This document shows positions 6,934-27,603 of a DNA stretch of 32,404 nt, in pieces. The notes under the pieces were generated by a model. That model did not search any database. It saw only the letters and a list, made by a program, of their open reading frames with translations, and was not told the origin of the DNA. The DNA comes from Sideroxydans sp. (GTDB lineage Bacteria > Pseudomonadota > Gammaproteobacteria > Burkholderiales > Gallionellaceae), in NCBI GenBank assembly GCA_013140695.1, contig JABFSI010000027.1, positions 1 to 32,404 of the forward strand, given 5' to 3'. A program made the translations under genes and the position numbers. How positions within the stretch are numbered: the first letter of the stretch is position 1; each line of letters begins with the position of its first letter.

Positions 6934-7056
6934 GTCATTCCCGTGAAAGCGGAAACCCAGTTAAATAAAAGCGCTGGCTTCCCGCTTTCACCCGCAAGGG
7001 GTACGCCGTGGTTGCAAGGGGCTAAAGCTCCAATAACATAGGCAGCGCGGGAATGA
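6934..7056. repeat. Palindromic intergenic element (GTCATTCCCG family) with an internal insertion
   Basis: The left arm begins GTCATTCCCGTGAAAGC and the inner half CAGTTAAATAAAAGCGCTGG matches the element at 17000-17066 (CAGTTAATTAAAGGCGCTGG). The right arm CTTCCCGCTTTCA is interrupted after about 6990 by roughly 55 nt before it ends CGCGGGAATGA. It fills most of the 192-nt gap between the TPR gene and lolB. Confidence 0.75.
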
Positions 7057-12590: not shown

Positions 12591-12597
12591 AAATGTC

Positions 12598-12705
12598 GTC
12601 ATACCGGCGCAGGCCGGTATCCAGCGCAGTTATCAAATAGGCATTGGTTTTTGTCTGCTTCGCAGAATTATTTAATGACTGGATACCGGCTTGCGCCGGT
12701 ATGAC
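12598..12705. repeat. GTCATACCGG palindromic element, left copy
   Basis: About 108 nt with outer palindromic ends (GTCATACCGGCG...CGCCGGTATGAC). Each end is itself a hairpin (ACCGGC.CAGGCCGGT). The core TTTTGTCTGCTTCGCAGAATTA is shared, in inverted orientation, with the copy at 20381-20483 and, diverged, with 22049-22151. Confidence 0.85.
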
Positions 12706-12708
12706 GAA

Positions 12709-12806: not shown

Positions 12807-14375
12807 ATGATCGAAGACATCAAAAAAACTCTCTGGGCAGCCGCCGACAAACTACGCGCCAACACCGATGCCGCCGAATACAAGCACCTCGTCTTAGGTC
12901 TCATCTTCGTTAAATACATCTCCGACACTTTTGCAGCCCGACGTGCCGAGCTAGGCCGCCGCTTTGCCGATCCCAAAGATGACTACTACCTCGACGATGC
13001 CGCACTCATGGCGGAAGAGTTAGAAGACCGCGACTACTACAAAGAAGTGAACGTATTCTGGGTGCCTGAAACCGCGCGTTGGGAAGCCATCCGTGCAGCT
13101 GCCAAGCAGCCGGACATCGGCAAGCGGATCGACGATGCACTGTCCGTCATCGAAGCCGAAAACCCCAAACTCAAAAATATCCTCGACAAACGCTTTGGTC
13201 GCGCACCGCTGCCCGATGGCAAGCTGGGCGAGTTGGTCGATCTCATCTCCACCATCGGCTTTGGTGATGACCCGCGCCTTGCGCGCGATGTGCTGGGGCA
13301 AGTGTACGAATACTTCCTCGGCATGTTCGCCAGCGCCGAAGGCAAGCGCGGCGGCCAGTTCTACACGCCCGCCAGCATCGTTAAAACACTGGTCGCCGTG
13401 CTCGCACCGCATCACGGCAAAGTTTATGACCCCTGCTGCGGCAGCGGCGGCATGTTTGTACAATCAGAAAAATTCATCGAATCGCACGGCGGCAAGCTGG
13501 GCGATGTCGCCGTGTTCGGGCAAGAATCCAACCCCACCACATGGCGCTTGGCCGCGATGAACCTCGCCATTCGCGGCATCGACTTCAACCTAGGCCGCGA
13601 ACCGGGCGACACCTTCACCAAAAACCAACACGCCGATCTGCGCGCCGACTTCATTCTCGCCAACCCGCCATTCAATATCAGCGACTGGTGGCACGGCAGC
13701 CTCACCGGTGATCCGCGCTGGGTGTATGGCGACCCGCCTGCGGGCAACGCCAACTACGCGTGGTTGCAGCACATGCTCTACCACCTCAAGCCCAATGGCC
13801 GCGCAGGCATCGTGCTAGCCAACGGCTCCATGAGTTCCAGCCAGAACAGCGAGGGCGAGATACGCAAAGCCATGGTCGAAGCCGACGTGGTGGAAGTGAT
13901 GATCGCGCTACCCGGCCAACTGTTCTTCAACACCCAGATACCCGCCTGCCTGTGGTTCCTCGCCAAACAAAAAACCAGCAGGCAAGGCGAAGTGCTGTTT
14001 ATCGACGCGCGCAAACTCGGCACCATGATTAGCCGCGTGCAAACTGAATTCACTGATGAAGTGATTGAGAGAATCGCCGCCACTGTCGAAGCTTGGCGCA
14101 ACCCTGACCGTCATTCCCGCGAAAGCGGGAATCCAGTGGTTTACGCCGACATCCCCGGTTACTGCCGCAGCGTCAAACTCGCAGAGATCGCCGAACACGG
14201 CCACGTCCTCACCCCCGGCCGCTACGTCGGCGCGGAAGAAGTGGAAGACGATGACGAAGCCTTCGCCGACAAAATGCAAAAACTCACCGAAAAGCTGGGC
14301 GAGCAGATGGCGAAAGGAACAGAACTCGATGCGTTGATCCGGCAGAAGCTGGGAGGGCTGGGGTATGAGTTCTGA
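12807..14375 (+). CDS. hsdM: Type I restriction-modification DNA methyltransferase HsdM
   Basis: N6-adenine methyltransferase subunit of a type I R-M complex. With HsdS it modifies host sites; with HsdR added it restricts unmodified DNA. It is 522 residues long. The helical HsdM N-domain (MIEDIKKTLWAAADKLRAN) occupies about 1-140. The SAM-binding motif DPCCGSGG begins at D208, and the catalytic NPPF is at N286-F289. Late blocks YADIPGYCRSVKLAEIA and LTPGRYVGAEE are typical of the family. Residues 435-444 (RHSRESGNPV) are encoded by a 27-nt half of a genomic palindromic repeat inserted in frame (14110-14136) in a loop before YADIPGYC. The gene overlaps hsdS by 11 nt. Confidence 0.96.
   Translation: MIEDIKKTLWAAADKLRANTDAAEYKHLVLGLIFVKYISDTFAARRAELGRRFADPKDDYYLDDAALMAEELEDRDYYKEVNVFWVPETARWEAIRAAAKQPDIGKRIDDALSVIEAENPKLKNILDKRFGRAPLPDGKLGELVDLISTIGFGDDPRLARDVLGQVYEYFLGMFASAEGKRGGQFYTPASIVKTLVAVLAPHHGKVYDPCCGSGGMFVQSEKFIESHGGKLGDVAVFGQESNPTTWRLAAMNLAIRGIDFNLGREPGDTFTKNQHADLRADFILANPPFNISDWWHGSLTGDPRWVYGDPPAGNANYAWLQHMLYHLKPNGRAGIVLANGSMSSSQNSEGEIRKAMVEADVVEVMIALPGQLFFNTQIPACLWFLAKQKTSRQGEVLFIDARKLGTMISRVQTEFTDEVIERIAATVEAWRNPDRHSRESGNPVVYADIPGYCRSVKLAEIAEHGHVLTPGRYVGAEEVEDDDEAFADKMQKLTEKLGEQMAKGTELDALIRQKLGGLGYEF
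14110..14136. repeat. Half of a GTCATTCCCG palindromic element inside hsdM
   Basis: 27 nt identical to the left arm of the element at 22049-22151, with its GCG-AAA-CGC hairpin. The unit equals nine codons and leaves the hsdM frame intact, encoding HSRESGNP. It lacks the second half seen in the intergenic copies. Confidence 0.9.
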
Positions 14376-15636
14376 GTTTGAAGAACCTACGTTTGAAGAA
14401 ATAAAAGCCCCAACGAAGTCGGCATTTTCTATGGGGCCGTTTGGCTCACGAATAAAAGCAGAAAACTTTGTGTCGGAGGGGGTGCCCGTTATCAAAGGTG
14501 GCAATCTAAATGGTGATCTAGATAGTAGCTCGTTTGATTTTCTAACACCCGAAAAGGCGGCAGAGCTATCAACCTCTATTGCGCGAAGCCTTGATTTGGT
14601 AATCACGCACAGAGGTACTTTAGGGCAAGTTGGCATCATTCCGCCCAATTCCCGCTATCCCGAATATATTGTTTCTCAAAGCCAACTGAAGTTGAGCTTT
14701 GACCAAACCAAGGTTAATTCATATTTTGTTTACTACTTCCTTCGCTCATCAGTCGGTCAAAGGCGGTTACTCGCAAATACCTCACAAGTTGGTGTGCCAG
14801 CAATTGCTCAAGCTCTAACATCAATTCGCAACATAAGAATTCCGCTCCCCTCATTAAAAGAGCAGGACGGTATTGTTGGCGCATTGCGCCTTCTAGACGA
14901 CCGCATCGCCCTCCTGCGCGAAACCAATGCCACGCTGGAAGCCATCGCGCAGGCGATATTCAAATCGTGGTTTGTCGATTTCGACCCCGTCCACGCCAAC
15001 GCAAAAGGCCGTGCCCCCGAAGGCATGAGCGAAGCCACCGCCGCGCTCTTCCCCGACAACTTCGAGGAATCGGAACTGGGCTTGGTGCCGAGGGGGTGGA
15101 AGGTTGAGCGGCTCGAAACTTTTATGGAGCTTTCATATGGCAAGGCGTTAAAAGCAACTGAACGAATCGTTGGTGGAGTGCCTGTCTATGGCTCTGGCGG
15201 GATAACGGGCTGCCACAACGAAAGCCTAGTTAACGGCCCATCAATTGTTATTGGTCGAAAAGGAACAGTCGGCAGTCTCTACTGGGAAGATCAGCCGTTC
15301 TTTCCAATTGATACTGTTTTCTATGTGCGGTCAGTCATGCCGATGACGTACTGTTTTTATCTGCTTCAAACATTGGGCCTCGCAGATATGAACACCGATG
15401 CGGCAGTGCCGGGATTAAATCGGAATAATGTCTATCGCCTGAAAGTACCAAAAGCACCAGAGGCGGTGCTGTCGGCATTTAACGATGTAGTCGATGTCCT
15501 TCGCGGTTCGATATTCAAAAATAATCAGCAAGCCCAAACCCTCGCCACCCTCCGCGACACGCTGCTCCCCCGCCTGATCTCCGGCCAACTGCGCCTGCCG
15601 GAGGCCGAGACTGCGCTGGAGGCGGTGACGGAATAA
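14365..15636 (+). CDS. hsdS: Type I restriction-modification specificity subunit HsdS
   Basis: DNA-recognition subunit, 423 residues, with the canonical two-TRD plan. TRD1 covers about 1-165 (FSMGPFGSRIKAENF, VPVIKGGNLNG) and is followed by the conserved helix LPSLKEQDGIVGALRLLDDRIALLRETNATLEA (about 168-200) and IFKSWFVDFDPVHANAKGRAPEGM. TRD2 runs about 245-380 (LGLVPRGWKVERLETFMELSYGKALKA, GRKGTVGSLYWEDQPF), and the C-terminal helix is LATLRDTLLPRLISGQL. The TRDs are visibly AT-richer than the spacer helices, as expected for swapped recognition domains. It starts 11 nt inside hsdM. The DNA target cannot be read from sequence. Confidence 0.94.
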   Translation: MSSEFEEPTFEEIKAPTKSAFSMGPFGSRIKAENFVSEGVPVIKGGNLNGDLDSSSFDFLTPEKAAELSTSIARSLDLVITHRGTLGQVGIIPPNSRYPEYIVSQSQLKLSFDQTKVNSYFVYYFLRSSVGQRRLLANTSQVGVPAIAQALTSIRNIRIPLPSLKEQDGIVGALRLLDDRIALLRETNATLEAIAQAIFKSWFVDFDPVHANAKGRAPEGMSEATAALFPDNFEESELGLVPRGWKVERLETFMELSYGKALKATERIVGGVPVYGSGGITGCHNESLVNGPSIVIGRKGTVGSLYWEDQPFFPIDTVFYVRSVMPMTYCFYLLQTLGLADMNTDAAVPGLNRNNVYRLKVPKAPEAVLSAFNDVVDVLRGSIFKNNQQAQTLATLRDTLLPRLISGQLRLPEAETALEAVTE

Positions 15637-15800: not shown

Positions 15801-16949
15801 ATGCGAGTTACGGGTGCTTATGTAACTTCAACAACTTTGGGCGAGGCGGTGCAGGCGTTTGTGCCGCATGCCTTGCCGCCGCGCGCGCCTGTATTGGCCG
15901 CGACGGGTTATGCGGCGCTCAACCATGCGGCGGAGTTAGCGTTGGCGCGCTTGGCCGGTGTGTCTGGCTTGGTGCCGTCGGTGGATTGGTTGCTGTATAG
16001 CGCGGTGCGCAAGGAGGCATTGCTGACTTCGCAGATTGAGGGGACGCAGGCGACGCTGACGGATTTATTCGACGAGGAGGCGGGCTTTGCCATTGCCAAT
16101 ATCGACGATGTGGAAGAGGTGACGAACTATCTGCGCGCCTTCCGTTTGGTGCAGGACAATTTGCGCGCTGCCGATGGCTTGACGATCAGTGTGCGTTTGT
16201 TGTGCGAGGCGCACCGTCTGCTGTTGAATGGAGCGAGAGGCAGCGGCAAGCAGCCGGGCGAGTTGCGCCGTTCGCAAAACTGGATAGGCGGTACGCGGCC
16301 GGGCAATGCGGCGTTTGTGCCGCCGCCTGCGGAAAAGATCGCGGCGCTGCTGGCGGATATGGAGCGGTTTATTCACGCTGCATCGTCGGATAATTTGCCG
16401 CCCTTGGTAAAGATTGCGCTGGTGCATGCGCAGTTTGAAACCATCCACCCATTTCTGGATGGTAATGGTCGTATCGGGCGTTTGCTGATTGCAGCGTTGA
16501 TGGAGCATTGGGAGTTGTTGCCCGAGCCGTTGATGTATTTGAGCGGATATTTGAAGCAGCACCAGTCGGAGTATTACCGTCGGTTGTCGGCGATTCGCAC
16601 GGATGGCGATTGGGAAGGCTGGGTGGCGTTCTTTTTGGAGGGCGTTGCGGTGGCGGCCTTGGATGCGGAGCGCAACATTGTGGCGGTGGCCAGTTTGATT
16701 GCGGCGGATCGGCGGCGTTTGCTGGCGGCGGAAAAAGGCGGGCTGGCAAGTTATCGTTTGTTTGAGCTGTTGCCGATGATGCCGCGCTTTAGCATTGAGC
16801 AGGTGCGCCAAAAACTCAACACGACTTTCCCAACCGCGAACGCTGCCGTGAAGGTGTTGGAAGATTTAGGCATCGTGGCGGAATTCACCGGACAGAAGAA
16901 AAACCGCAGTTTCAGTTATCAGCCGTATATCGAGTTGCTGACGCGTTGA
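15801..16949 (+). CDS. Fic family protein (putative AMP-transferase) with N-terminal inhibitory motif
   Basis: 382-residue Fic protein. The active site H216-PFLDGNGRIGR-227 has the catalytic His and all phosphate-loop residues, so it should transfer AMP (or another nucleotide) to a target hydroxyl. T76-SQI-E80-G81 fits the [S/T]xxxE[G/N] inhibitory motif that keeps class II Fic proteins auto-inhibited. The C-terminal part (FSIEQVRQKLNTTFPTANAAVKVLEDLGI) looks like a winged helix. The ATG at 15801 is preferred over one 75 nt upstream, which would lie within the palindrome region; AAAGAAAG precedes it. It sits between hsdS and hsdR, a common but poorly explained association. The target is unknown. 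Confidence 0.9.
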   Translation: MRVTGAYVTSTTLGEAVQAFVPHALPPRAPVLAATGYAALNHAAELALARLAGVSGLVPSVDWLLYSAVRKEALLTSQIEGTQATLTDLFDEEAGFAIANIDDVEEVTNYLRAFRLVQDNLRAADGLTISVRLLCEAHRLLLNGARGSGKQPGELRRSQNWIGGTRPGNAAFVPPPAEKIAALLADMERFIHAASSDNLPPLVKIALVHAQFETIHPFLDGNGRIGRLLIAALMEHWELLPEPLMYLSGYLKQHQSEYYRRLSAIRTDGDWEGWVAFFLEGVAVAALDAERNIVAVASLIAADRRRLLAAEKGGLASYRLFELLPMMPRFSIEQVRQKLNTTFPTANAAVKVLEDLGIVAEFTGQKKNRSFSYQPYIELLTR

Positions 16950-16999: not shown

Positions 17000-17066
17000 G
17001 TCGTTCCCGCGAAAGCGGGAACCCAGTTAATTAAAGGCGCTGGATTCCCGCTTTCGCGGGAATGAC
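17000..17066. repeat. Short GTCGTTCCCG palindromic element between fic and hsdR
   Basis: Two hairpin arms (GTCGTTCCCGCG...GGGAACCCAG and CTGGATTCCCGC...GGGAATGAC) flank a 13-nt core TTAATTAAAGGCG. It is the compact version of the 22049-22151 element and shares its core with 6934-7056. Confidence 0.85.
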
Positions 17067-17080
17067 GGTGTCTACATGGC

Positions 17081-17147: not shown

Positions 17148-20100
17148 ATGACCGAAGACCAACTGGAACAGGAAGCATTAGGCTGGCTCAACGAGGCTGG
17201 CTATTCCACCGTGTATGGCCCGGACATCGCGGTAGATGGTGATGCACCAGAGCGTAGCGATTATCGCCAAGTGGTATTGGTGGAGCGGTTGAGGACTGCC
17301 ATTGCGCGCTTGAATCCGTCTATTCCCAAGGTGGCGCAAGATGATGCGATTCAGCAGGTGCTTGAGTTGGGCACGCCGGTGTTGCTGTCGGCGAATAAGC
17401 GCTTTCATCAGTTGCTGGTGGGCGGTGTGCCAGTGCAGTATCAGCTAGGCAATGAGACGCGCGGCGACTTCGTGCAGTTGGTTAATTGGGCAGAGCCTAC
17501 CCGCAACGAGTGGCTGGCAATCAATCAGTTCTCGATCAAAGGCGCACACCATACGCGCCGCCCAGATGTGATTTTGTTCGTGAACGGTTTGCCGCTGGTG
17601 TTGCTGGAGCTGAAGAATCCCGCTGACGAAGCCGCCGACATCTGGAAAGCCTACGACCAGATTCAAACCTACAAAGAACAGATTCCCGATGTGTTCCAGT
17701 ACAACGAGGTGCTGGTAATTTCGGATGGCAGCGAGGCGAGGCTCGGTTCGTTGTCGAGTGATGCCGAGCGTTTCATGCAGTGGCGCACGATTGATGGCGT
17801 GATGCTTGATCCGTTGGGGCAGTTCAATGAGTTGGAGACGTTGATTCGCGGCGTGCTGGCTCCGGCTTATCTGCTCGACTATCTGCGTTACTTTGTGTTG
17901 TTTGAGGATGACGGTGCGCTGATTAAAAAGGTCGCGGGCTATCACCAGTTCCATGCGGTGCGTGCGGCGATCAATCAGGTAGTGGCTGCTTCACGCCCCG
18001 GTGGGTCGCACAAGGGCGGCGTGGTGTGGCACACGCAAGGCAGCGGCAAGAGCATCACCATGACGTGCTTTGCCGCGCGCGTGATGCGCGAAACGGCGAT
18101 GGAAAATCCGACCATCGTGGTCATCACCGACCGCAACGATTTGGACGGGCAGTTGTTCGGGGTGTTTTCACTGGCGCAGGATTTGTTGCGCGAACAACCG
18201 GTGCAGGCCAACACGCGGCAAGACCTGCGCGCGAAGTTATCCAACCGTCCTTCCGGCGGCATCGTGTTCGCCACCATTCAAAAGTTTATGCCGGGTGAGG
18301 ATGAGGACACCTTCCCTATCCTTTCCGAGCGCAGCAATATCGTGGTGATTGCCGACGAGGCACACCGCACGCAATACGGGTTTGAGGCGAAGCTGAAAAC
18401 CATCAAGCCATCACGTGACGCAGCGAATGATGCGCAAGCGTTGATGGCGGCAGAGCCGAAGTCGGTCTATCAAGTGGGCTACGCACAACACCTGCGCGAT
18501 GCCCTACCCAATGCCACTTTTGTGGCCTTTACCGGCACCCCAGTATCCAGCGAAGACCGTGACACGCGCGCCGTGTTCGGTGATTACATCCATGTGTACG
18601 ACATGCAGCAGGCGAAGGAAGATGGCGCGACGGTGGCGATCTACTTTGAATCACGCCTAGCGAAGTTGTCTTTGAAAGCGGATGAGTTGCCTCAGTTGGA
18701 TGCCGAAGTGGATGAGTTGGCCGAGGACGAAGAAGAAAGCCAACAAGCGAAGTTGAAGAGTCGCTGGGCAGCGCTAGAAAAGGTAGTGGGTGCAGAGCCG
18801 CGCGTGGCGAGTGTGGCGGCGGATTTGGTGGCGCACTACGAGGAACGTAGCAAGGCGCAGACGGGCAAGGCGATGGTGGTGGCGATGAGCCGCGAGATTT
18901 GCGTTCACCTCTACAACGAGATCATCAAGCTGCGGCCTGAGTGGCACGACGCTGATCCTGAGAAAGGCGCAATCAAGATCGTGATGACAGGATCGGCCAG
19001 TGATAAGGCGCTACTGCGCCCGCACATCTACAGTGGACAGGTGAAGAAGCGACTAGAGAAACGCTTCAAAGACCCCGCCGATCCCTTGCAGATCGTCATC
19101 GTGCGCGATATGTGGTTGACGGGATTCGATGCGCCGTGCGTGCATACCCTTTATGTCGATAAGCCGATGAAGGGCCACAACCTGATGCAGGCCATCGCGC
19201 GGGTGAACCGCGTGTTCAAAGATAAGCAAGGCGGCTTGGTGGTGGACTACATCGGCATCGCCAATGAATTGCGCAGCGCATTGAAGGAATACACCAACAG
19301 CAACGGGCGCGGTAAGCCAACGGTGGATGCGCACGAGGCATATGCGGTGTTGGAGGAGAAGCTGGATATTCTGCGCGCCTTGTTACACGGATACGATTAC
19401 AGCGACTTCCTCACTGCCAGCCACAAGCGTTTGGCCGGCGCAGCCAACCATGTGCTGGGCGAGAAAGATGGCAAGAAACGTTTTGCTGATACCGCGCTGG
19501 CGATGAGTAAGGCGTTCACTTTGTGCTGTACCTTGGATGAAGCCAAAGCGGTGCGTGAAGAGGTGGCGTTCTTCCAAGCGGTGAAAGTAATTCTGACCAA
19601 GCGAGAAATCAGCCTGCAAAAGAAGACCAACGAGGAGCGCGAGTTAGCGATCCGGCAGATCATCGGTTCGGCAGTGGTGTCGGAAGAGGTGGTGGATATA
19701 TTCAACGCGGTGGGCTTGGATAAGCCGGACATCGGCATTCTGGATGAAGCCTTCCTTGCCGACGTGCGCAACCTGCCCGAAAAGAATCTGGCGGTGGAGT
19801 TGCTGGAACGTTTGCTGCAAGGGGAGATCAAGACGCGCTTCGCGGGTAACGTGGTGCAATCGAAAAAGTTCTCCGATCTGTTGAGTGACGTGGTTATGCG
19901 CTACCAGAACCGTGCGATCGAGACGGCTCAAGTCATCGAAGAGTTGATTGCTATGGCGAAGAAATTCCGTGCGGCGGCAGAGCGCGGTGATGATCTGGGG
20001 CTAACTGAAGACGAGATTCGTTTCTACGATGCATTGGCCGACAATGAATCTGCTGTGCGCGAATTGAGCGATGAGATACTGAAGAAAATCGCACACGAGC

Positions 20101-20285
20101 TGACCGAAAACCTGCGCCAAAATTTGAGTGTGGATTGGTCTGCACGTGAAAGCGTGCGCGCCAAGTTGAGGCTTATGGTGAAACGCATCCTGCGTAAATA
20201 CAAATATCCACCGGATCAACAGGAAGCTGCGGTTGAGTTGGTGTTGCAACAGGCGCAGGCGCTGGGTGAGGCGTGGGCGGTGTAG
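17148..20285 (+). CDS. hsdR: Type I restriction endonuclease subunit HsdR
   Basis: 1045-residue motor and nuclease subunit. It translocates DNA using ATP and cuts at a distance when the complex meets unmethylated sites. The PD-(D/E)xK nuclease is D140...E154-L-K156 ([20 protein letters not shown]). The SF2 helicase motifs are HTQGSGKS (about 295-302), the DEAH box at 403-406 ([11 protein letters not shown]), FTGTP near 461, and the late motifs [10 protein letters not shown] and [10 protein letters not shown]. The C-terminal helical region (about 830-1045) probably contacts HsdM. The frame is complete. It follows fic by 198 nt with operator-like repeats between, so it may be controlled separately from hsdMS. 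Confidence 0.96.
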
Positions 20286-20329: not shown

Positions 20330-20483
20330 TCAAAGGGGACGAGAACCCCTGCGGTGAAACCCGACCTTCAAAAACGTACCGTCATACCGGCGTAGGCCGG
20401 TATCCAGTCATTTAATAATTCTGCGACGCAGACAAAAGCCTTTTCAATACAAGGCACTGGATACCGGCCTACGCCGGTATGAC
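20330..20483. repeat. Right-flank composite repeat (AAACCCGACC segment plus GTCATACCGG element)
   Basis: 20330-20372 resembles the right half of 12511-12590 (ACCCCTGCGGTGAAACCCGA). It is followed, after AAAAACGTACC, by a 103-nt GTCATACCGG element (20381-20483) with perfect-looking hairpin ends. Its core (AATAATTCTGCGACGCAGAC) is inverted relative to 12598-12705. The rest of the 20286-20673 gap is the rhlE leader; apart from a GCTTC-AAC-GAAGC hairpin at 20629-20641 and the TAAGAT site I see nothing else there. Confidence 0.8.
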
Positions 20484-20541
20484 GATATATGGGAATGTGG
20501 CAGTAGGTAAAACATTCCCCAGTCTGTATTCCCCCTTCTGT

Positions 20542-22048: not shown

Positions 22049-22151
22049 GTCATTCCCGCGAAAGCGGGAATCCAGTGCTTTTATTGAATATGCATTTGGT
22101 CTGTTTCGCAGACTTGTTTAATTGCTGGATTCCCGCTTTTGCGGGAATGAC
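22049..22151. repeat. GTCATTCCCG palindromic element between rhlE and the DUF1415 gene
   Basis: 103 nt starting 10 nt after the rhlE stop, with hairpin ends ATTCCCGCG/CGCGGGAAT and AAAGCGGGAA. Its core (GGTCTGTTTCGCAGACTTGT) aligns with that of the GTCATACCGG elements although the end sequences differ. It could double as a processing or termination structure. Confidence 0.85.
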
Positions 22152-26655: not shown

Positions 26656-27603
26656 CTAGACCACTGGCCTAGGGTCTTCCCCCCTAATCCCAACGAGACT
26701 CGCACCAGCAAATTGGGACTGTCCGAATCTGGCATCACTCAAATCAGCAAAAGATAGATTGGCGTTGCTAAAGTCCGCGCCATCAAACCAACTCTCTACC
26801 AGACTAGCCTTGGTCAGATTGCATCCACAAAACAAGGCATCGCGTAGTACTGCACTTGAGAGATCCGCCCCAACAATATTCGCATTGCTAAAGTTGACCG
26901 GAAGCGCGGATGTTTTACCTTCTAACTGCTTAGCAGTCGCGCTCATCCAATTAGCAACAATATCCATATTGCTAAAGTTGACCGGAAGCGCGGATGTTTT
27001 ACCTTCTGACTGCTTAACAGTCGCGCTCATCAAATTAGCACCACGCAGGTTTGCTCCAACAAATAGTGCTCCTGTTAAGTCAGCTTCGGACAAATCAGCT
27101 TCACTCAAATCCGCGCCGCTCAAATCCGCACCGCTCAGGTCCGAGCCGGAAAAATTGACCTCCTTCAAGTTGGCGTTGCGCAAATCCGCACCCACGAATT
27201 TACGGTTGCTCATATCCTGCCCGCTCCAATCCACCACTTCACCAGAGGGTTCAGTCTCTTCTTCATTTTCCTTGCTGGCTAGTGCCGCTGGCACCGATGC
27301 TGCCGCAGGTGCAGCCGCTGCCGCTGCATTGTGCCAATCCTCCAGCATGAATTGCGCATCCTCTGCATCCATCGCGATTTCAAGCACCCCCGCCACAGCC
27401 AGCAATTGCGCGGCTTCATCGCTATTTTTATCAATAGCGCGAATGGCCTCGGCTTGCACTTGCATATCTCGACCGTCGAACCATTTGGCCAAGCGACCGC
27501 TTTGTAAGGCAGGCAATATGTCGGCGCAGAAATGATCTTGCAATTCTTCCAGCTTGTTGATTGTTCGGCCTTCCAGGGTAATGCTGATTTGTACCTTTTT
27601 CAT
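26656..27603 (-). CDS. Pentapeptide-repeat protein with helical N-terminal domain
   Basis: 315 residues. The N-terminal part (1-92) is helical with ILPALQSGRLAKWFDGRDM at 29-47; I do not recognise its family. An Ala/Pro linker (93-108) and acidic stretch (111-119) follow. Pentapeptide repeats A(D/N)Lxx cover about 130-192 and 245-305 (GADLSGADLSEADLSEADL), forming a right-handed beta-helix. The helix is interrupted by two 28-residue near-identical units (190-217 and 218-245) carrying KTSALPVNFSN. Strong GAGGAGA precedes the ATG. It lies between the nuclease-like and AAA+ genes on one strand. Some pentapeptide proteins mimic DNA (MfpA/Qnr), but no such claim is made here; it may be a scaffold or an adaptor for the ATPase. 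Confidence 0.85.
   Translation of the reverse strand: MKKVQISITLEGRTINKLEELQDHFCADILPALQSGRLAKWFDGRDMQVQAEAIRAIDKNSDEAAQLLAVAGVLEIAMDAEDAQFMLEDWHNAAAAAAPAAASVPAALASKENEEETEPSGEVVDWSGQDMSNRKFVGADLRNANLKEVNFSGSDLSGADLSGADLSEADLSEADLTGALFVGANLRGANLMSATVKQSEGKTSALPVNFSNMDIVANWMSATAKQLEGKTSALPVNFSNANIVGADLSSAVLRDALFCGCNLTKASLVESWFDGADFSNANLSFADLSDARFGQSQFAGASLVGIRGEDPRPVV
26884..27051 (-). repeat. 84-bp tandem duplication within the pentapeptide gene
   Basis: Two copies begin ATTGCTAAAGTTGACCGG on the plus strand at 26884 and 26968. Over the first 73 nt they differ at about three positions; the last 11 nt diverge. The period is 84 nt, exactly 28 codons, so the frame is kept. The low divergence points to a recent event. 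Confidence 0.92.

Follow-up and report, generated by a model that had tools for sequence, protein, structure and literature searches.

Genes and repeats of the window

The window, a stretch of 32,404 nucleotides from a Sideroxydans genome, contains an hsdM-hsdS-fic-hsdR island on its plus strand.

12807–14375, plus strand: hsdM, methyltransferase subunit of a type I restriction-modification system, 522 aa (Pfam HsdM_N, N6_Mtase)
14365–15636, plus strand: hsdS, specificity subunit, adjoining hsdM
15801–16949, plus strand: gene for a Fic-domain protein between hsdS and hsdR, start at ATG 15801
17148–20285, plus strand: hsdR, type I restriction endonuclease subunit

The longest fic reading frame begins earlier, at TTG 15726, and the ATG at 15801 was taken as the start. 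The HsdM_N and N6_Mtase domains, the intact frame and the nearby hsdS and hsdR identify the hsdM product as a type I methyltransferase subunit with a predicted methylase activity. Its 522-aa frame also contains the NPPF motif. Two similar CCGG-type repeat pairs flank the island (12596–12707 and 20377–20487). Elsewhere in the window, an open reading frame at 26656–27603 on the minus strand holds two tandem 84-bp units that are 93% alike (26871–27038), and its protein looks pentapeptide-like by eye.

A second kind of repeat occurs both between the genes and inside hsdM.

14110–14136, plus strand: arm of a CGTC-1 type REP, in frame from 14109 as RHSRESGNP
17000–17066, both orientations: head-to-head pair of the CGTC repeat, intergenic, between fic and hsdR (sequence comparison)
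22049–22151, both orientations: head-to-head pair of the CGTC repeat, intergenic (sequence comparison)
6934–6960, plus strand: diverged copy of the CGTC repeat with 3 mismatches (sequence comparison)

The sequence of the hsdM arm is GTCATTCCCGCGAAAGCGGGAATCCAG. Within the window, the arms at 22049–22075 (plus strand) and 17040–17066 (minus strand) have exactly this sequence, and the exact match with the latter extends to 30 nt (14107–14136 and 17040–17069). The arms at 22125–22151, 17000–17026 and 6934–6960 differ from it by 1, 2 and 3 mismatches, respectively. In a random genome as large as this one and with equal base frequencies, one given 27-mer would be expected ~3e-10 times. An earlier sequence-only reading had described these 27 nt as one arm of the intergenic elements, coding for HSRESGNP in HsdM with the frame unbroken; the exact identities and the intact 522-aa frame bear out both statements.

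The number of copies depends on the way of counting: in the whole genome blastn found 71 places (the hsdM copy included) and a strict core pattern 101 (55 forward and 46 reverse), and a search allowing up to 4 mismatches in the window and 53 further stretches found 111, the CGTC and CCGG motifs overlapping once mismatches are allowed. The core pattern read backwards, used as a control, matched at 0 places in the genome. CGTC-1 REPs are described as having a CGTC tag, an 8-bp stem starting with AT, a 4-nt loop and a CCA tail, and the Neisseria dRS3 repeat is of the same type (PMC3733652). The arm in hsdM fits this type: the tag lies at 14109–14112, the 8-bp stem at 14113–14120 and 14125–14132 (ATTCCCGC and GCGGGAAT, with AT at positions one and two), the loop is GAAA and the unpaired CCA tail lies at 14133–14135. 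The repeat is also dispersed, many of its 101 places forming plus/minus pairs ~40–100 nt apart, and the hsdM copy is a single arm, unpaired with a second one.

The variable loop and a relative without the repeat

The arm lies in a variable stretch of the protein.

14100–14141, plus strand: variable loop of HsdM, 42 nt long in the window against 21 nt in the nearest relative (L018); predicted coil

In the structure predicted from 53 sequences (mean pLDDT 79.9) residues 432–446 are mostly coil, and the loop, a coil with two bridge residues, lies between a helix (417–431) and a strand (453–457). The mean pLDDT falls from 93 (421–430) to 67 (431–440), and is 78 for residues 441–450 and 96 for 451–460. 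A second loop of HsdM, at residues 385–398, sits between two predicted strands, and both loops are probably exposed to solvent.

The nearest HsdM (L018) is 97% identical to that of the window (L009) over 341 codons, although the two genomes differ in genus code and dS is 0.43. The two are sisters in the tree described below (branches 0.004, support 82), and L018 does not have the repeat at the site. Its genome contains the CGTC repeat at 20 places, yet its hsdM site is empty. Between TGGCG(C/T) and TACGCC the window has 42 nt and L018 has 21 nt, that is, 14 residues against 7, and the codons neighbouring the arm differ as well. Because of this, the hsdM insert reads as a REP arm with remodelled flanks and not as a clean 27-nt insertion. 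The idea that nine codons had been inserted is slightly off, as the net gain is seven residues. A target-site duplication is unreadable because the flanks are remodelled, and among the HsdM sequences compared we found no species represented by both a repeat-bearing and a repeat-free allele. Other HsdM proteins usually have a few residues at the site (e.g. GEAGAGEY). The only other CGTC carrier at the site among 107 HsdM is L115, from Pseudomonadaceae bacterium UBA836; it reads RHSREGGNL, and in its genome (G154) 16 places, that in hsdM among them, have the repeat.

Four repeat families at one HsdM site

We compared HsdM proteins drawn from 149 genomes, that of the window counted (30 loci), together with the best 80 of 580 relatives, which gave 110 sequences (L009–L118). 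Four were removed as duplicates (L039, L043, L061 and L074 of L012, L015, L014 and L010, respectively) and one paralogue (L251) was added, leaving 107. At reference residues 430–446, 17 of the 107 have a palindromic repeat; as L251 was found through a match to a repeat pattern, the fairer count is 16 of 106. The repeats belong to four families that are unlike in sequence. Nine proteins carry the CCCTCTCCC..GGGAGAGGG palindrome (L010, L011, L016, L017, L022, L027, L042, L092 and L111), four the TTCGCCCTGAGC/TTCGCCCTGAGCnnnTCGAAGG family (L014, L036, L095 and L251), two GTAGGTCGGGTTA (L015 and L047) and two the CGTC repeat (L009, that of the window, and L115). Three of the 17 have a second repeat in the loop after CLWFLxK (reference residues 385–398). 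Family matches elsewhere in the protein numbered 0 in the 107 sequences, and 90 of these had no family match at the site.

A scan for perfect hairpins that used no family motif pointed to the same place. With arms of at least 9 nt, 11 of 19 hairpins fell in residues 431–440, in nine loci, one of which (L080) belongs to no family; with arms of at least 8 nt, the figure was 15 of 47. Five further proteins (L028, L045, L078, L093 and L098) have longer inserts at the site that matched none of the families tested. Two candidate families were dropped. The pattern of the SENNSC peptide (L078, L092 and L093) has a single match in the genome of L078, a single one in that of L092 and none in that of L093, which does not show it to be dispersed. 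The GTAGGGGCG repeat of L014 has 3 matches in its genome (G058), 2 of them inside the insert, and its backwards control also gave single matches in G058 and G150. As a separate observation, the second-loop CCCTCTCCC repeat in L010, L016 and L036 is read in another frame than at the main site, of the SPASGRGAGGEG type.

The insert families recur in the genomes of their carriers (all counts include the insert itself). Forward-strand copies of CCCTCTCCC number 55 in G030, 82 in G069, 27 in G126, 39 in G103, 17 in G149, 30 in G151, 7 in G033, 5 in G002 and 4 in G153; of the 23 genomes searched with the backwards control, G154 had one match and the other 22 had none. On both strands, TTCGCC has 12 copies in G058, 11 in G152 and 2 in G021 (one besides the insert), and GTAGGT has 4 in G150. 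In G012 the strict patterns found the inserts only (one TTCGCC match, and two GTAGGT matches, both in the hsdM insert). In total, for 14 of the 17 inserts the genome of the carrier has one or more strict copies besides the insert, L014 being counted by its TTCGCC part; the inserts without one include L015 and L251, both from G012.

Repeats in MutL and other proteins

In the genome of the window we examined 53 stretches that cover the places listed by blastn and, among the matches listed, by the core pattern; with the window they contain the 111 copies counted at up to 4 mismatches. Ten candidate reading frames were scanned with Pfam, and the repeat lies with certainty inside four recognisable proteins: HsdM, MutL (two CGTC arms in the linker that joins DNA_mis_repair to MutL_C), a DAO oxidoreductase, whose domain contains two CGTC arms, and an IF-2B protein, whose domain contains one. 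Less certain, and left out of this count, are frames of ApbE, LysR and phosphoesterase type with the repeat close to what may be the N-terminus, a radical SAM frame with the repeat near its end, a permease frame with two arms ahead of the Pfam domain, and repeat-bearing frames that had no Pfam match or were outside the ten scanned.

We also collected 45 MutL sequences from the same 149 genomes, comprising the 30 best matches (L212–L241) and 15 chosen for broken or odd matches. Of the 30 best, 3 have repeats at residue ~193 and 12 have them in the linker; the corresponding numbers for all 45 are 10 and 18. Two single GTAGGT matches lie elsewhere in MutL. Since MutL has repeats at two places, HsdM is not unique but one of several proteins with permissive loops.

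How the repeats came to lie in HsdM

We consider it likely that an arm of a CGTC-1 REP was captured in a tolerant loop of hsdM and that permissive loops of this kind retain palindromes. One arm of a dRS3-like REP would have entered hsdM and been kept, as the loop before YADIPGYC would tolerate extra, mostly hydrophilic residues. In general, several dispersed palindrome families would occasionally enter genes; inserts disrupting the reading frame or the fold would be lost, and those in a small number of permissive loops, two each in HsdM and MutL, would persist as protein sequence. The sequence-only reading, which saw a mobile non-coding element becoming protein in a loop that seems to tolerate it, was right in fact and interpretation but understated the case, the site being used by four families. 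Tolerance agrees with the 17 proteins that have a repeat there, and mobility is suggested by the copy number of the CGTC repeat and its scatter on the tree. The same residues in close homologues without the repeat family, which would speak against capture, did not occur among the 107 HsdM.

The site could instead be a target at the DNA level, with integration or template switching preferring this hsdM sequence and selection playing a minor part. The inserts do follow the same few codons, often TGGCGCGGCGA (by eye), but these codons encode a conserved protein motif. Moreover, four families unlike in sequence use the site, in hsdM genes whose proteins go down to ~58% identity with that of the window, and other loops behave alike (HsdM 385–398, and MutL residue ~193 and linker). 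A DNA target is therefore unlikely, and selection rather than target choice probably makes the site.

Slightly less likely again is that recombination moves the loop between hsdM genes, so that older insertions spread by exchange and no repeated insertion is needed. We built a FastTree phylogeny from 487 columns that excluded both HsdM loops. Presence or absence of an insert takes at least 13 changes on this tree, at least 11 of them forced by the starred branches, and the family label takes at least 16. When the insert labels were shuffled, the mean was 16.1 changes and 5 of 500 shuffles were as low as 13; the carriers are therefore somewhat clustered, as exchange would have it. The close likeness of L009 and L018 despite their differing genus codes points the same way, as does the second-loop repeat common to L010 and L016. 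The frame of the CCCTCTCCC repeat at the main site is also the same in all nine carriers (..GEG, by eye; eight if the near-copies L022 and L027 are counted once). Chance among open frames would not predict this, and it counts against our best explanation. So do the remodelled flanks with their unreadable junction, the absence among the sequences compared of a species having both kinds of allele, the scarcity of strict copies outside the inserts in G012 and G021, and the five longer inserts that match no family. On the other side, the tight clade of L009, L010, L014, L016 and L018 contains three families and one empty member, and the genomes of most carriers have further copies of the family of their insert. 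Some events may have been inherited or exchanged (L022 and L027, L010 and L016), but each repeat was probably placed by insertion rather than by loop exchange.

Positive selection is improbable. It would have the inserts vary the HsdM surface that phage anti-restriction proteins meet, or supply an mRNA hairpin before hsdS, and a loop of a defence gene is indeed struck repeatedly at the same place; yet MutL, a repair protein, has the same pattern at two places, and most HsdM (90 of 107) have no family match at the site. Least probable by far is a decaying hsdM that accumulates junk, for which the insert itself is the sole point in favour, against an intact 522-aa frame with NPPF, adjoining hsdS and hsdR, and a dN/dS of 0.063–0.118 between L009 and five relatives (0.057–0.152 over 11 pairs), low values which indicate that the hsdM genes compared are maintained.

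Repeat DNA thus seems to have become protein at this loop again and again, which makes it possible to test the idea that working enzymes gain new segments from non-coding repeats. HsdM offers a natural experiment, in that a single loop has many inserts from different families, close relatives are empty and methylation gives a simple readout.

A DUF559 domain beside the CCCTCTCCC palindromes

In one carrier (L016; G069:C203), whose open frame is 739 aa long, CCCTCTCCC palindromes flank a DUF559 domain (E 9.5e-37) within the HsdM insert. Of the 149 genomes, 92 have DUF559 matches. We examined 39 loci (L119–L129 and L131–L158; L130, a weak match, was excluded), 11 of them from genomes picked partly for their repeats and 28 from a wider search. 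A CCCTCTCCC palindrome or its CCCTCCCCC variant lies within 200 bp of DUF559 in 27 of the 39 (7 of 11 and 20 of 28); the remaining 12 had no palindromes. Less than 100 bp from the domain edges there were 36 palindromes (4.73 per kb), at 100–199 bp 10, and in the bins from 200 to 1499 bp 8 (0.09 per kb), so that the CCCTCTCCC..GGGAGAGGG density is ~50 times higher within 100 bp than beyond 200 bp. As a control, the ends of the 30 MutL matches had no such palindrome within 200 bp.

At several loci DUF559 and the palindromes share one open frame with another protein. In L123 (G012) DUF559 (501–607) is placed between the best MmeI methylase stretch (285–474) and the MmeI target domain (731–933) of an MmeI-type enzyme; in L124 (G126) it follows the DnaG N-terminal and Toprim domains; in L252 (G133:C56) it follows the methylase domain of another HsdM; and in L150 (G007) it stands ahead of SdhE (Sdh5). 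In L157 (G123) it lies ahead of the latter part of Radical_SAM_N, followed by Radical_SAM and DUF3362, a YgiQ-like domain set. The 12 loci without palindromes speak against a simple account, as do many DUF559 matches in open frames of 800–1700 aa, which may be ordinary domain architectures.

The association makes DUF559 a candidate enzyme for one palindrome family. Tentatively, and with slightly more doubt than confidence, we propose that CCCTCTCCC..GGGAGAGGG and DUF559 could make up a single mobile unit that inserts in frame into protein-coding genes and is then translated within the host proteins. Solo palindromes would be its short forms, and the receiving loops would be common to other REPs, such as the CGTC copy of the window. 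DUF559 has been called Vsr-like in Caulobacter, in the accessible part of PMC12907096. A literature search by title, a weak one with most subscription papers outside it, found no link between DUF559 and palindromic repeats.

Comparison with known repeats

The window repeat corresponds to the CGTC-1 REPs of Di Nocera, De Gregorio and Rocco (2013, PMC3733652) in tag, stem, loop, tail, head-to-head pairs and intragenic copies. As far as the accessible part of that paper goes, CGTC repeats are apparently without a dedicated transposase, S. lithotrophicus is named among the CGTC species, and REPs inside genes were already known, including different REPs at about the same recB site in two Xanthomonas species. 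The genes it names there are uvrA, recB, dnaE2, tRNA synthetases and others, with hsdM and mutL not among them. A similar search by title, likewise weak with most subscription papers outside it, brought up nothing further on point for HsdM or type I restriction-modification with in-frame palindromic repeats.

Palindromic repeats translated in frame within many genes are also known as Rickettsia palindromic elements (RPEs), according to the parts of PMC10969869 and PMC3733652 available. In-frame capture of a REP as such is therefore a known kind of event. The REPtrons described in the same portion of PMC3733652, a REP with a RAYT transposase, resemble the CCCTCTCCC/DUF559 arrangement in that a palindrome family borders an enzyme gene; the enzyme is DUF559 here but a tyrosine transposase in REPtrons, and movement by DUF559 is hypothetical.

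RPEs are spread over unrelated genes, whereas here one HsdM loop has been struck repeatedly, across Beta- and Gammaproteobacteria, by several families. Beyond the recB case, the part of PMC3733652 available contains no report of several families converging on a single loop of a protein. What is new is thus the convergence of several repeat families on one HsdM loop, which extends the in-frame capture known from these systems.
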